Origin: Lepraria neglecta
Taxonomy: Eukaryota > Ascomycota > Lecanoromycetes > Lecanorales > Stereocaulaceae
Direction of reading: 5' to 3'
Assembly: GCA_033220425.1 (NCBI GenBank)
Contig: CM065652.1
Span: forward strand, 1,612,001-1,676,000
Length of the DNA stretch: 64,000 nucleotides
The notes under the pieces are model-generated. The model saw nothing but the letters and a program-made list of their open reading frames with translations, did not search any database and was not told the origin of the DNA. The position numbers and the translations under genes are program-made. Shown one piece after another: positions 25,217 to 52,540 of this stretch (the first letter of the stretch is position 1; each line of letters opens with the position of its first letter).

Positions 25217-28200
25217 TCAGGAAAGTAAGGTAAAGTTCACAACGAGCTTGCGCCCAATCCTTCCATCGTTCCCAGTCCCGGCCTCTATCAGTCTTACCGC
25301 TTCTGTGTACTCGCTCTCAGGTTCTCGTTTAGCACCAGCCTCCAGGAATGTTCGGGTTAAGGCAGCTTGGTTCTCATTCCCGTCTTCTTCCTGAAGATAC
25401 GATATGATTAATGCGTCTGCTACAAGGCCTAATATCCATTCATTCTCATCGAAATACGTGCAGTAAGGACCAGCGCCCCGCGGCAAAATCTCCGTGCCGG
25501 CCTCCAATAGAAGAACGACAATAGCATGATGAGCTAAAGCTGCTGAACAACCCAGAGCTGTGGGCCCTGAGAATTCCTGACGATTAATATTCTTTTCCAA
25601 AGCAAGTATCATCTGCATTGTCTCCAGCTGGCCGGAATGTACTGCCGTATGAAGGAGTGTCCTTTCCTCTGGATCGTCGTTGACTCCTGCAGAAATGAGT
25701 AGGCTGGCAGCGTTCTTATGTCCCGCGCTAATCGCCGATACCAGCACTTTCTCTTGCTCTAAAGCGCTCGCATTCTCCAAGACTTTGCGATCTATCAGCT
25801 CTTGTAAGAGTATGTCGTTCCCAGTCGAAGCTGCCTCGTCCAAAATTTGGCTATATGGATCAGCATCAACGCAGATATTAATGAATTCATCGAGCAGCAT
25901 CAAGATGATCTCAGGATGACGCGAGGTCAGTGCGGCTCGAATGGTACTTTCTTGTGGCTTGTTGGCGAGCAGCAGTTCAACTGTCTGACTTCGACCTTCA
26001 TAGGATACAGCTTTTAGGGCACTATGATGTTGTTTATCTCGCAAGTTTACATCGGCTCCATTAGCGAGCCGTAGATTGACTAACTGCCCATGGCCGAGAC
26101 GTGACGCGATGTACAATTCAGTATAGCCCTCGTCATCTTGGGCATCAACGTCTACCCCACTCGCAAGCAGCAATCGCATAGCATTCTCGGAGCTCCAGAC
26201 TGACGTGTCTATCAGGGCGGTCCTAAGGAATTTACCTCAGGCATTATGATCAGCTCCACTGGCAAGCAGTAGTTGCACCACCTGGTCATGCCCAGCACGT
26301 GAGGCTGATCCCAAGGGGGTGACGAAATCCCCACCGTGAGCGTTGACGTCAGCTCCATTGGCAAGGAGTAGCTTTGGTACTTCTATCTCGTTGCTATGTG
26401 ATGAGGCGGCTTGCAGTGCATCGCCCCGTGGTCCAACTTGGGCGTGCACATCAGCACCGTGGTCAAGCAACAGTTGAACAATTTGCCTTAGGCCGCGGAT
26501 TGACGCTAGTATTAAGGCGTTGCCCTAAATTTCCCCGCAATCAAGGTTCACTTGTTCTCCCCTTTCAAGCGAAGTTTGACGCCCTCCTCGCTGCCAGAGT
26601 TGACTGCAGTTTATAGAACCGATAGCCCGTTCGACTCCTTGGCATTGACATCAACACCTTCGCTAATTAGTAGACGAACAAGTCGCAGCATGTCAGCCCC
26701 TTTTCGACCTCCGCGGGCGGACGCCTCGTGCAATGGCGTTCTCCCAAGGTGAGAATAAGCATTGACATCCGCACCTGCTCTCAGCAAGTGGCAAGCCATC
26801 TCCTTATTGAGGTTCAAGGCTGCTCCATGTAGGGGTGTGAGTCCTTGATGATTTCGGGCGTTTGCCATCGCTCCCGCTGAGAATAGCATGTCAACAAGTT
26901 TGAGACGATTGTATCTGGCAGCAGAGGCGATGGCGTCCGTAAGAGAGCCCTTTTTAACCTTTCCTACAAGTTTGTCAGAGATCTGGTAACATTTTGTGTT
27001 GCAATCCGTTGCTTGATTGCTTTCTATGCGATTCCAGAAGCCTGTTGCTAGCCGTTCTTTGTCTGTTTTGGCCATATATTCGGCCCTGGGGCCCCCATTA
27101 GCTAGATATCCTTCCTAGCCTATTGCCACATTGCAACATTTTGCAGCTTTTTCAAGGGCATGACAAGCTTCGGCAAAACTTTTTTTTGCTATCTTGTAGT
27201 GATGATAAAGTTTCTCATACCATACTCCGACTTTGACAAAGGTCTCAGAACCCTCGTAAAAGACAGCGAGGTTGTGCTTTGCTGGTAGTGTATCACTATC
27301 GAGTTGGCCGAACTCAGCTTCACTCTGTTCGACGAGTTGTACTAAGCTCCACTCTTGGTCCGAGGCTTCGCCTGCGATGCAGTCTGACATAATCTGCGAG
27401 TCGTCATCGTGATTTTCTTGAAGAGGTTGTGGTGGTTATTTTGAGGTCGTGCTTGTCACAATAGCACGTCGCTCATAATCGAAGAACGCAATCTTTCTCT
27501 CACGGACGTCACGCAGTCGGCCTGTTGCCCAGACAATGAGATCATTTCTCCAACAAGCTCCGTACTCGATTCGTACAGGAACTCAAGAACTTCAGCAGCG
27601 TCTTGTAGTTTCCCTAGTCTCCAGAAAGTCACCGCCAGACCTTTGAAAAGTAATAGTAAACGCCTGTCACGTGGCCAAGATGTGCCCTGCATCACAGTTT
27701 CATACTATATTATCGCGGTAAGCATAGCTTCAGCCTCTCGGAGATAGGGCTCGTTAAGGTACACACGAGCGAACTGGACAGTCACAAAACCATACTGGTG
27801 ACATAATCTCCCATCCGGAGCTTCAAGTAGTGTTTGACGAGAGGCAGGTTTGTCAGAAACACGCGCTCGTCCACAGTGTCGTCGGGCAGGCGTTGGCTCA
27901 GAGCAAGAGCAGCAAGCATGACCCAGTGCTCTTTTTTAACCTCCTCGAGTGCTTCCAAACGCCAACGGCAGAGCGACCTGTGAAGGGAAAAGCTTAAGAC
28001 GGTGCCATCGATATTTCGTCTCGTTTTCAATAGACACAGAGACTCCAGTCGATTGATAGCGAATCGAAGCTTAAGCTTGTTCTGCACTAAGGTTGTCAAC
28101 CATTTGGACTCCATCGTGTTGGGATCGGATTCGTTCTGAGACTGCAGAAATCCGGCCGGACGAGACTCCCTAAGGACATTCTCAAGAGCTGCATGCTGAG

Positions 28201-47353: not shown

Positions 47354-50246
47354 CTTGAAGTATTAAGTCGATGAAATCAAAAGAACAGTATGCTAATAGG
47401 CAGTAAAGCAAGGTTGGAGTTGGACATAGTGTGGCTGTGTTCAGGCGTTCAGGCGTTCTGGCGTTCAGCCTTAGCTGAAAAACCTGTGCCCATTGTCCAC
47501 TTACCGAACCTTCAATCGAGAACACCCCTATCTATCTTTGCGTCAAAAGACTTCATTATCCCAACAAAAACCTGTTAGACCGGCTCCCAAATGAGAATTG
47601 ACCCTTAATCTCTCATCACTCAAATCAGATACGTCAGAGTCCCAACGCCCGCTCCCAGCGCTCCTGCCAACCCAAAACCAGAAGCCTCCTTCCTCGTTGC
47701 AGCCGCTTTCTGGTCACTGGCTGGCGCTTTAAAAGCAGCAACAATTGCACCCCCAACACCATTCGTGCTCGCAGGCCCTGATGTAGCCAATGTTGCCGAG
47801 CCAATATGTAGCGCGGAGTTTGTCCCCAGCCTCACATCGACACCAGAAACCGTGACGTCCGCTCCACTAGGCAAGATTGTACCACCAGCAAGGTAAAAGC
47901 CGTTGGAGGCAGCTGTGAAGATTTTTCTATCCACAGTGAAAAATGAGGGAGATGGTTTCGGGGGCAGTGTCAGAGTGCTCGCACCGTTGACCAAGAGGCG
48001 GTAATTTGAAGGCAACACGGAATAGGTCGTCCCTGAAACGACGGCAGATGGACCACCGGCACTGATTACTACGCCATTTGGCAAATCAAGGGCCGGGTTT
48101 ACCCCAGGCTTGTCTGCACTAGTCACAGGAGTGACAATGAGGCCATTGGCAAGCGTGATAGGGCCACTGGACTCAGTGTTAGTCGGCATGATTTGAACAA
48201 CACATGCATTTTCAGTAGGAGACAATGAGTAAGTACTCCCGTCCACGATGACGCTTGAGGAGCCTTCCAGAGAGTAGGCATGGCCAGATAGCGTTGCTTG
48301 AGCGTTAGGCGCCATTGTCAACGATCCTAGAACGAGTCCTCCGTCCGGCGCTCGATGTACAGTTTGGCCTCCGATGACTAGCGGGTTTGAAGTTTGCACT
48401 GGTGAAAGAGCCAGGCTTGTACCGTCCACGATGGCTTGATAAGGATTGGATATTTGACCATACGTCCGGATACGGTCGCTTGGCTGCCGGGTAAAATTGT
48501 CTGATCACCAAGTTGCAGGGCTCCGTTCGAGGCCTGCACGATTTGATTATTGCTTAGTAGTGGCGGTGCCACTGGTAGAGGTCTGAGTATTGCTGTCCAG
48601 AACGATATGGCTCGCGGCATTTGAGACTGTGTGGCCAGCCATGATGGCTTGATGCCCGGGAGCTATGGTGGAGCCAGCTACGACAAGATCGCTGTTCGAG
48701 TTCTGGACAACTGGGTGACCTTCGACCGAAGGAAGAGCAGGCGCTGTGGTAACTATGGAGGGAGGCTGCAACGCATATGTGCTGGAATCTATTACCACAT
48801 TACTTGCGCCATTTGACACGGTGTGATCTACAACGACAGCTTGGCTGCCGGCCGGTACTGTATTACCTGCCACAATCAGGTCGCTGTTCGCCTCCTGCAA
48901 GATCGGCTGGCCACCAATCGAGGGAAGTGGCTGCTTTGGAGCAGCAACAGCAGGTGCAGGGACCAGTGAAGGGGCGGTTGGTGGCTGAAGTACTTGTGTT
49001 TTTCCGTCCACCACGACTTTAGTTGCGTCGTTCGAAATTGCATGTCCAACCACGGTGGCCTGGCTTCCAGGTGGCAAGGTTGAGCCTCCTATAATAAGAT
49101 CGCTGTTCCTATTTTGTAAAATTGGCTGGCCACCGATGGACGTTATAGGATCTTCCACTGCCGTAACAGCGGGTGCAGGCCGCGGAGATGGCGCTGTAGG
49201 AGGCTGAAGAGCATGGGTCTTACGATCTATTACGACGTGACTCGCACCGTTCGATACTGTATGACCCGCCACCGTCGCCTGGCTGCCTGGTGGCAGAGTT
49301 GACCCTGCAATGACCAGGTCACTATTCGGGCTTTGTAAGATCGGCTGTCCACGGAATTTGGGCAGGGGTTGTGCTGCCGGAAGTGCAGGTGCAGCACCAT
49401 CGGCGGATTGAGCATTTCTCGACAGCTGCACAGGTGACAATGTGATGGGTTTATTTGCCGGGTTGCCATCCGCGGTACTATCACCCTTGTCCGGATCTAC
49501 TTGCGTAGGGTCGTCTTCAGAAGCCGCACCAGGAGTGTTTTGGTTGTTGTCTGGGGGTGATGACAGTCCCTCAGACTCTCCTGCGCCTTGATCTGGCTGT
49601 CCACCGACGCCATTCTGCACCGGAGGAGCGTTTTCCGAGCTTCCTGGCGCCGATCCACTAGCACTAGGTTGAGGCCCTGGTTTTGCATGAGGCTTAGGGG
49701 TGGTTGAAGGTTGAGGTTGTTGAGGGCTAGGTAGAGGTGCGGTAAAACCAGCTTCATCAGGCTGCGGGTTTGGTTGATGATTTGGGGCCCGCACGGGGTC
49801 AGAGGCAGCCTGAGGGTGCTGTTGAGGGGTCGAAGTTGACGTGAGAGCTTGATGGAGCTGAGACATGAAAGTTGGAGACTCATTATTTGGATTCGCAGGC
49901 GGCGCCGGACTGACGGCAGCGGGATTATTGCCACCCTGGTTCTGAGCTACATTTAAATTTTTCGGGGGATCATTCTCTGGGAATTTCGGATCGGGTTGCG
50001 GTACAGTAGGAGATGGATTTGACGTTTCGACAGGAGGAAGCGATCCCGTATTCCTGGGGGCCGCTGGTGGGTATTGGCCTTCAGGACCTGAAGCGACCGT
50101 CACCGAGGACGGTCCAAGGGCATTAGCGCACATCAGAACTCGTGGTGGATCCAAAACTCCCAGAGCAATCGGAGTGCAAGTGTCTGCGCCCCATATTTGC
50201 CACTCCGGGTCAATATCCATCACCTCAGACGGAATCGAAAGCTGAG

Positions 50247-51322
50247 TGTTGCAATCCGTTGCTTGATTGCTTTCTATGCGATTCTAGAAGCCTGTTGCTA
50301 GCCGTTCTTTGTCTGCTTTGGGCATATATAGGGCCCTGGGGGCCCCCATTAGCTAGACATCCTTCCCAGCCTATTGCCACATTGCAACAGGTTATGAGCC
50401 CGGACAGCGCCTATTTCGCTGTACCTTTATGGGGAAGGTTCCCTCGCAGTACGGTGTCTGCGTTTTATACGTTCAGCCCTCGGATTTGCTTACCAATCGA
50501 CTTACAGATATGGAGTCAGAACTCAGTAGAGGCATCATGGAGGAATTCGGCTCCCAGCCAGTTATTTCTGGGAGTATTTCGGTCCGGATACAGGGGAGAT
50601 AAATTCTCAGGCCTACGACGACCACTCAAGCCCTACACTGTTTTGTAGGCACGGCTCCTCAATCAGTTATATCTGGGAGCATTTCAGTCTGGATACAGGG
50701 GAGATAAATTCTCAGGCCTACGACGACTACTCAAGCCCTATATGGGCATAGCTCCTCAATCAGTTATATCTGGGAGCATTTCAGTCTGGATACAGGGGAG
50801 ATAAATTCTCAGGCCTACGACGACTACTCAAGCCCTATACGGGCATAGCTCCTCAATCAGTTATTTCTGGGAGTATTTCGGTCCGGATACAGGGGAGATA
50901 AATTCTCAGGCCTACGACGACTACTCAAGCCCTATACGGGCACAGCTCCTCAATCAGTTATTTCTGGGAGTATTGCGGTCCGGATACAGGGGAGACACAT
51001 GGATTCCCAGGCCTACGACGACTACTTAAGCCCTACACGGTTCTGTACGCACGGCTCCGGATACAGGGGAGACATATGGATTCTCAGGACTATCAACGAC
51101 CTCTCGGACGCCGACAAATGTTTTGGGTCCAGGATTGAGGGGAGCGCTAGCAGGGATATGTTTCTAGCATCGAGGGGAGTGTTGCAATCCGTTGCTTGAT
51201 TGCTTTCTATGCGATTCTAGAAGCCTGTTGCTAGCCGTTCTTTGTCTGCTTTGGGCATATATGGGGCCCTGGGGGCCCCCATTAGCTAGACATCCTTCCC
51301 AGCCTATTGCCACATTGCAACA
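50247..51322 (+). mobile_element. TRIM-like small LTR retroelement (Ty1/copia-type priming), looks whole
   Basis: Two direct 143-bp repeats (50247-50389 and 51180-51322) start TGTTGCAATCC and end CATTGCAACA. CTGAG is duplicated outside (50242-50246, 51323-51327). Right after the first repeat GGTTATGAGCCCGGAC is complementary to the anticodon arm of eukaryotic initiator tRNA-Met (GGGCTCATAACC), the half-tRNA priming site known for copia and Ty5. A polypurine tract GAGGGGAG stands directly before the second repeat. The 790-bp interior has no gag or pol and consists mostly of 97-bp tandem repeats. These are the parts of a terminal-repeat retrotransposon in miniature, mobilised by a partner elsewhere. 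The two LTRs differ at one position, so insertion is recent. It sits in the glycoprotein gene. Confidence 0.88.
50550..51070 (+). repeat. 97-bp tandem repeat inside the TRIM
   Basis: About five full units and one partial, each starting near GCTCCTCAATCAGTTAT, with GGATACAGGGGAGATAAATT and CAGGCCTACGACGACTACTC. Unit starts at 50654, 50751, 50848 and 50945 are exactly 97 bp apart; the first and last units diverge. The repeated GGGGAGA blocks resemble the polypurine tract, so units may have arisen by priming slips. Confidence 0.9.
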
Positions 51323-52540
51323 CTGAGGTGTCCCGAACATCCAGGACGCGAGGCTAGTGTCAGTTGACTGGTCTATGAAACACGACTGGTATCTTGAAAG
51401 AAGCTGGGAGGCTGGCGGAGGATTTGCAAGCTCCGAATAATTGATTTGCTCCCATCCGTTGAAAATCCCCGGGAAAATGAGTGAATGTCCACCTCCATCA
51501 TGATATACAAGATCTGATAAAGCCGTTAATATTGCTCGTTCCCAAACTGCATCCATACGCACCCATGCCCTCGCTGTCGGGCGCTATACATTTGGCGGAA
51601 GAGAGTGCGTCTGGATCATAGGCACGTGTGACTGTGTTTACTGGCCTTAAGCGTACGCGATATCTCGAGTGCGCCACGCATATAGGCTCAGCTGAGATAC
51701 CAGTATAGGCAACATAAACTGAGGGCGAAATGCTTGCACGTCATGTTAGCAGATCTCTCGTGATCTTAATCCAATTTCTCACAATACAAAACCATCGGAA
51801 ACTAGCCCAGACGCTTCTATCTTTTGCACGCTCGGTTCCGCAGTAATGTTAAAGATGTGTGGTTGATAGATTTCGAGACGCTACTTGACTCAGGTGGCCA
51901 ATAGATCAATTGGACTTTAGATGCTCTGATGTCGCATCTATTGCAACAGTCCGCAGGTGCAGCATAAGGAGTAGCTAATTCCGATACGGCATAGTAAGAG
52001 CAGTCCAAGGACTGCTTGTCCGAGTCGAGGGTCCCAGAGACGGTTGGTGGGCAGTTCCACGTCATCACCGTGGCTGTAGGATGGTTGTACTGCCATTTGG
52101 CAGCACTGACTACGTAGGAGCATGACTTCGCGTTGTAATTCCAAGGTGGACGACCCATGGAGCAATTGACTCCTAGATAAGCTAAGCTCAGAGAAGCTTT
52201 CGCGGCAAACACAGGCTCGTCATTTATATATGATACAGGTGTAGGAGGCGCTGTTATGGAGGGTTGGACTGTAGCGTTCGTAGGCCGAAGACCATGAACG
52301 GTCGGAGAAGAACCAGAGACGGTTGAGGCGCCTACCAACGGAGGAGCCATATGGGAAGGGGACACCGAAGTCCCCAGTGGTCCTAATTTAGGTGTTAGAG
52401 TGCCGATGGAAGGAACGCTGGGTGACTGGCCATCTAGCCACAGGCTGTCGGATGGGTAAAAGTTGGACCATGGCGGAATGGACGAAATGGTACTGGACGT
52501 GAAAGAACTGAAAAGACGGGCTGCTGGACCAGAGACTACT

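Follow-up and report, generated by a model that had tools for sequence, protein, structure and literature searches.

A TRIM retroelement family in Lepraria neglecta with a half-tRNA(iMet) primer site and a candidate Copia helper in the same genome

Ty5 and Drosophila copia are primed by the 5' half of tRNA-iMet, whose end lies in the anticodon loop. Terminal-repeat retrotransposons in miniature (TRIMs) have been described from several fungi. Rust fungi carry Helenus TRIMs with a primer-binding site (PBS) for the iMet anticodon loop, together with Copia helpers (Kojima 2024, PMC10886601); seven Copia-related TRIMs are described from Cochliobolus (PMC4112212), and TRIMs are also reported from Zymoseptoria (PMC10652580). 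In the account given for filamentous ascomycetes, FunCo1 elements have an internal portion of tRNA-Lys as primer and GalEa elements are without a PBS (PMC5445492). In plants, a longer relative is listed for 11 of 289 TRIM subfamilies (PMC4717578). Because fungal TRIMs with the same primer site are already published (Helenus, PMC10886601), a first-pass annotation went too far in calling the element described here unusual for a fungus.

We analyzed a 64,000-nt stretch of Lepraria neglecta DNA (the window), in which the following features were located.

26997..27138, + strand: solo LTR of the TRIM family, flanked by TTTTG/TTTTG (L152)
48547..50246, - strand: open frame downstream of the insertion
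50242..50246, no strand: target-site duplication, left copy, CTGAG
50247..50389, + strand: 5' LTR, 143 bp, ends TGTTGCAATC...CATTGCAACA
LTR positions 77-84 of the 5' LTR, + strand: TATA-like CATATATA
50390..50403, + strand: PBS GGTTATGAGCCCGG, 14 nt, complementary to tRNA-iMet 27-40 (anticodon stem-loop half)
50414..50425, + strand: eroded second stretch facing the tRNA D arm, TTTCGCTGTACC, not significant in this copy
50559..51040, + strand: internal tandem array, 97-bp unit, 4.8 copies
51170..51179, + strand: polypurine tract (PPT) TCGAGGGGAG, common to the window TRIM and Copia family X
51180..51322, + strand: 3' LTR, 143 bp, differing from the 5' LTR at one site
51323..51327, no strand: target-site duplication, right copy, CTGAG
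51323..51562, - strand: stop-free frame of 80 codons in a minus-strand gene, upstream of the insertion

The element at 50247-51322 is 1,076 bp long and non-coding, the longest stop-free stretch of its 790-bp interior being 110 codons. It has direct TG..CA LTRs, a target duplication, a PBS, a PPT and a short interior, and its family has dispersed copies; it is a TRIM. The structure proposed in the first-pass annotation (143-bp direct LTRs with TG...CA ends, a 5-bp duplication, a half-tRNA(iMet) primer site, a polypurine tract and a non-coding interior) is borne out throughout, the PBS being the reverse complement of iMet 27-40 in a numbering that we infer from the cmscan structure. Two further proposals hold in part. 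The single LTR difference, read as a sign of recent activity, is real (A/G, 50330 versus 51263), but one difference per 143 bp dates the insertion only loosely. Likewise, what had been called the element's own 97-bp satellite does exist as a repeat array, but the unit was seen only inside or beside TRIM elements, which makes it an internal array; a free satellite was rejected because no unit was found away from them.

The minus-strand frames on either side of the window copy agree in phase, by phase arithmetic, if 1,081 bp (the element plus one CTGAG) interrupted a single frame. The copy thus appears to have inserted into an open reading frame. By eye, the interrupted gene (window 47620-52365, minus strand) encodes a repeat-rich, proline-rich protein that is perhaps surface-anchored; a Pfam scan of its pieces matched no family.

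The genome assembly examined (42.0 Mb, 11 contigs) contains 194 matches to the first 28 bases of the LTR at up to three mismatches, compared with none for the reversed control. The first-pass annotation had called for such a genome-wide search with the LTR; 30 two-LTR copies and 62 single LTRs were read. A perfect 5-bp duplication, which has a chance of about 1 in 1,024 per site, flanks 26 of the 30 two-LTR copies (the exceptions being L055, L062, L065 and L069) and 47 of the 62 single LTRs (21/26, 11/17 and 15/19 in three batches), some of which may be the ends of broken two-LTR copies; the third LTRs of L046 and L056, the L070 LTR fragments and the L120 LTR were left out of these counts. The two LTRs show no substitution in 8 of the 30 copies and one in three more; transitions make up 129 of the 174 LTR-LTR substitutions, and several copies have a RIP-like composition. 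Interiors vary in the number and kind of their internal repeats, with units of about 56, 69, 74, 97 and 105 bp. Of 28 two-LTR copies, 15 carry the exact PBS and 8 a version with one G-to-A change; in the other 5 the site is altered or displaced. Further copies with 5-bp duplications therefore exist, and chance does not explain the primer site in them, the two points on which the first-pass annotation had said its reading would stand or fall.

Two unusually long copies were considered as something more and rejected. The 2.6-kb insert of L050 (670-3280, C1) is not a captured host gene; it is another repeat, with a 94% copy elsewhere. No target duplication is visible where it lies inside the TRIM copy, and sequence matching its first 320 bp and its last 136 bp occurs at many places in the genome. 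It contains a 257-codon frame without a Pfam match. Nor is L057 a long autonomous form, because its extra length is a nested element of another kind, TRIM2 (1,409 bp, L057 716-2124, C6), with its own CGGCT duplication.

The genome has 52 RVT_2 (Copia) matches; the clustering covered 30 of them, which fell into families X (8), B (8), A (7), C (5) and D (2), and a further family, E (C1:4044069), was read separately. The X LTR was found flanking seven of the eight X reverse-transcriptase loci and the X gag matches Retrotran_gag_2, which together make X a Copia family. X and the TRIM share 10 exact nucleotides at each LTR end, and their LTRs align with a local score of 51, compared with a maximum of 25 in 500 shuffles; the LTRs of A, B and C, at 24, 18 and 14, stay in the range of their shuffles. 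Copies of X (L011, L029, L030) also have the TRIM's PPT, whereas that of A and C is ATGGGGGTG, that of B AAATGGGAG and that of E CTGGGGGGTG. Indeed, the primer site is all that the TRIM has in common with A, B, C and E. Past the primer site, the X leader and the TRIM share a short motif at 10-25 nt; a blastn search of the TRIM interior against 45 Copia stretches (parts of elements) gave no match. The Copia helper suggested by the first-pass annotation thus gains support from a family with matching LTR ends, PBS and PPT in the same genome, and X is the best candidate. All eight X reverse-transcriptase loci carry at least four in-frame stops and have a RIP-like composition. Six of 16 X-like gag matches are free of stops, the query copy alone at full length. 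Neither the eight clustered reverse-transcriptase loci (from the 30 of 52 RVT_2 matches that were clustered) nor the 16 gag matches yielded an X copy whose gag and pol are both uninterrupted. X is therefore a candidate helper, apparently decayed in this assembly.

The sole gene-like tRNA-iMet match in the genome (C2:547785; L134 168-237; 46.5 bits to the tRNA model) lacks two acceptor-stem positions in the assembly and was not called in an ARAGORN run. The 14-nt TRIM PBS is the complement of its positions 27-40. The match spans 14 bases in the window's family (TRIM1), X, A, B and TRIM2, 15 in C, 13 in E, where the first base of the site is absent, and 13, 12 and 16 in L113, L107 and L120; because PBS loci were found by their first 12 bases, only the subsequent ones are independent. 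At L120 (301-460, C6:3985671) a TRIM LTR runs into 16 nt of tRNA-iMet complement, beyond which the DNA is unrelated. A half-iMet site is present in all five Copia families in which the site was determined (A, B, C, E and X), so the primer site alone cannot name the helper. In five of six families (TRIM1, TRIM2, X, A and B) the match ends at position 27, as if copying stops at position 26, which we take to be modified; reverse transcription of the primer would stop at that modified base.

One copy, L064, is a hybrid. Its LTRs are of the TRIM type (98.6 and 99.3% to the window LTR) and are flanked by an AGCAG duplication, and its interior, which opens with X leader and gag sequence, closes with TRIM sequence. 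This is the arrangement expected from template switching between packaged RNAs; DNA recombination is also possible. Because 7 nt are missing across the LTR/PBS border of this single case, it may have been altered after insertion. Nevertheless, the hybrid suggests that TRIM and X RNAs meet.

TRIM2 provides a second, parallel pair, so that the idea of dependence can be tested twice. Its 109-bp LTR (CGTTAGC...GCTAAAG, ends CG..AG) shares its ends with the 182-bp LTR of Copia B, and the two elements have the PBS in common. At L162 (163-415; C1:5531304-5531804) two TRIM2 LTRs of 108 bp each form an inverted pair flanked by a GTTGT duplication and separated by a 37-nt spacer, in which CCCGG links the 14-nt PBS, the iMet-half complement, to the 3' part of a different tRNA. 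The only other genomic match, an intron-containing tRNA gene (Asn-GTT by ARAGORN), lacks the last CCC. The joining of two tRNA-primed DNA ends before integration would explain this one case; in the literature searched, nothing was recognized as the same kind of inverted LTR pair with tRNA sequence.

Taken together, the sequence comparisons make it very likely that the TRIM family has been moved by the machinery of Copia X or a close relative, with priming by half of tRNA-iMet and integration of the X type. RNA polymerase II would transcribe the TRIM from its LTR, and the RNA would be packaged into particles of Copia X or of a closely related family. A cut in the anticodon loop after position 40 would release the 5' half of tRNA-iMet, which would anneal to the 14-nt PBS and prime the minus strand, and the PPT would prime the plus strand. 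An X-type integrase would then recognize the shared TGTTGCAATC...TTGCAACA ends and generate the 5-bp duplication, and later LTR-LTR recombination would leave solo LTRs.

The stops and RIP-like composition of the X copies raise the question of whether X was already dead when the recent TRIM copies moved, and whether intact Copia A, B or E, which have the primer site alone in common with the TRIM, moved them instead. Each of these families has the half-iMet site, and in each one copy keeps a long frame free of stops (1,301, 1,459 and 1,469 codons for A, B and E). We nevertheless consider this unlikely, because none of A, B, C and E matches the LTR ends and PPT of the TRIM, and because LTR identity over 143 bp is no proof that an insertion postdates the decay of X. 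The motif that the X leader and the TRIM have in common just past the primer site would also be expected if the copies were remnants of one longer element whose coding region was deleted, spread by segmental duplication. This is extremely improbable: the 5-bp duplications, perfect in most two-LTR copies and most single LTRs, differ from site to site, as do the flanks, implying separate integrations and refuting segmental duplication as the main mode of spread.

In X, GCTTCCGCTGCACC lies 23 nt past the PBS and is complementary to the iMet D arm at 13 of 14 positions; five old TRIM copies carry TTCCGCTGCGCC, complementary at 12 of 12. The stretch was first noticed by eye and tested afterwards against shuffles made by first-order Markov resampling. 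The longest exact match was reached, per 10,000 shuffles, by 0 and 1 for X, 4 for L052 and 1 each for L054, L055 and L068; the corresponding numbers are 134 for L057, 109 for L046, 6,518 for the window copy, 7,271 for L056, 9,501 for A, 9,649 for B, 2,859 for C and 2,827 for TRIM2. Per 1,000 shuffles, duplex energy gave 2 for X, 41 for L057, 33 for L050 and 272 for the window copy, and matching with mismatches allowed gave 0 for X, 7 for L057, 537 for the window copy and 37 for L120. The five copies with the perfect stretch have 7-19 LTR differences, compared with 0-10 in 18 others (Mann-Whitney p = 0.0012; the comparison leaves out seven of the 30 two-LTR copies, which have other forms), so the stretch looks ancestral and eroding. 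Its erosion in the window copy makes a function doubtful. It is probably a functionless trace, left either by primer copying or by descent of the TRIM and X leaders from a common ancestor: the young subfamily that includes the window copy is without exact complementarity, yet has seven copies with 0-1 LTR substitutions, and families A, B and C do not have the stretch. Against this stand the very few shuffles that equal the match in X and in four old TRIM copies (1-4 of 10,000 in the latter), two changes in the young form that keep G-U pairs with the tRNA, and the packaging of the Ty1 primer by D-arm complementarity (PMC4974528). A function is possible but less likely than not. On a bolder reading, with similarly modest odds, the half tRNA may be gripped twice by the TRIM and its Copia helper, at positions 27-40 by the 14-nt site and at the D arm (9-21 to 9-23) by the second stretch, with fossils of priming (the match end at 27; L162) preserved in the genome. 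Nothing recognized as the same D-arm contact in half-tRNA-primed elements was found in the literature searched.

How does this family compare with known systems? Ty5 and Drosophila copia resemble the TRIM in half-tRNA-iMet priming, but they are autonomous and coding. Ty1 RNA, too, is complementary to the tRNA-iMet D arm besides the primer site; however, Ty1 uses the 3' end of the whole tRNA, whereas the TRIM matches the 5' half and its D-arm part is eroded in young copies (PMC4974528). The window TRIM shares its anticodon-loop PBS with fungal Helenus members, but the defining trait of Helenus, an LTR that contains tRNA-derived sequence (PMC10886601), was not found here: window positions 50000-51600 gave no tRNA match at E values up to 10. 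The one Helenus/Copia pair presented by Kojima has unlike LTRs, whereas the TRIM and X have LTR ends and PPT in common. With plant TRIMs the family shares its miniature LTR structure, 5-bp duplications and a Copia relative with shared ends; the putative plant helpers, however, share long LTR and interior stretches, whereas the likeness to X is limited to the LTR ends, the PBS, the PPT and a short motif in the leader (PMC4717578). TRIM and candidate helper thus have in common exactly the signals that dependence should need and differ in the rest, and one genome contains both the candidate helper and a hybrid copy. What this locus adds to the known fungal TRIMs is the TRIM-helper pair and the D-arm stretch in X and five old TRIM copies.
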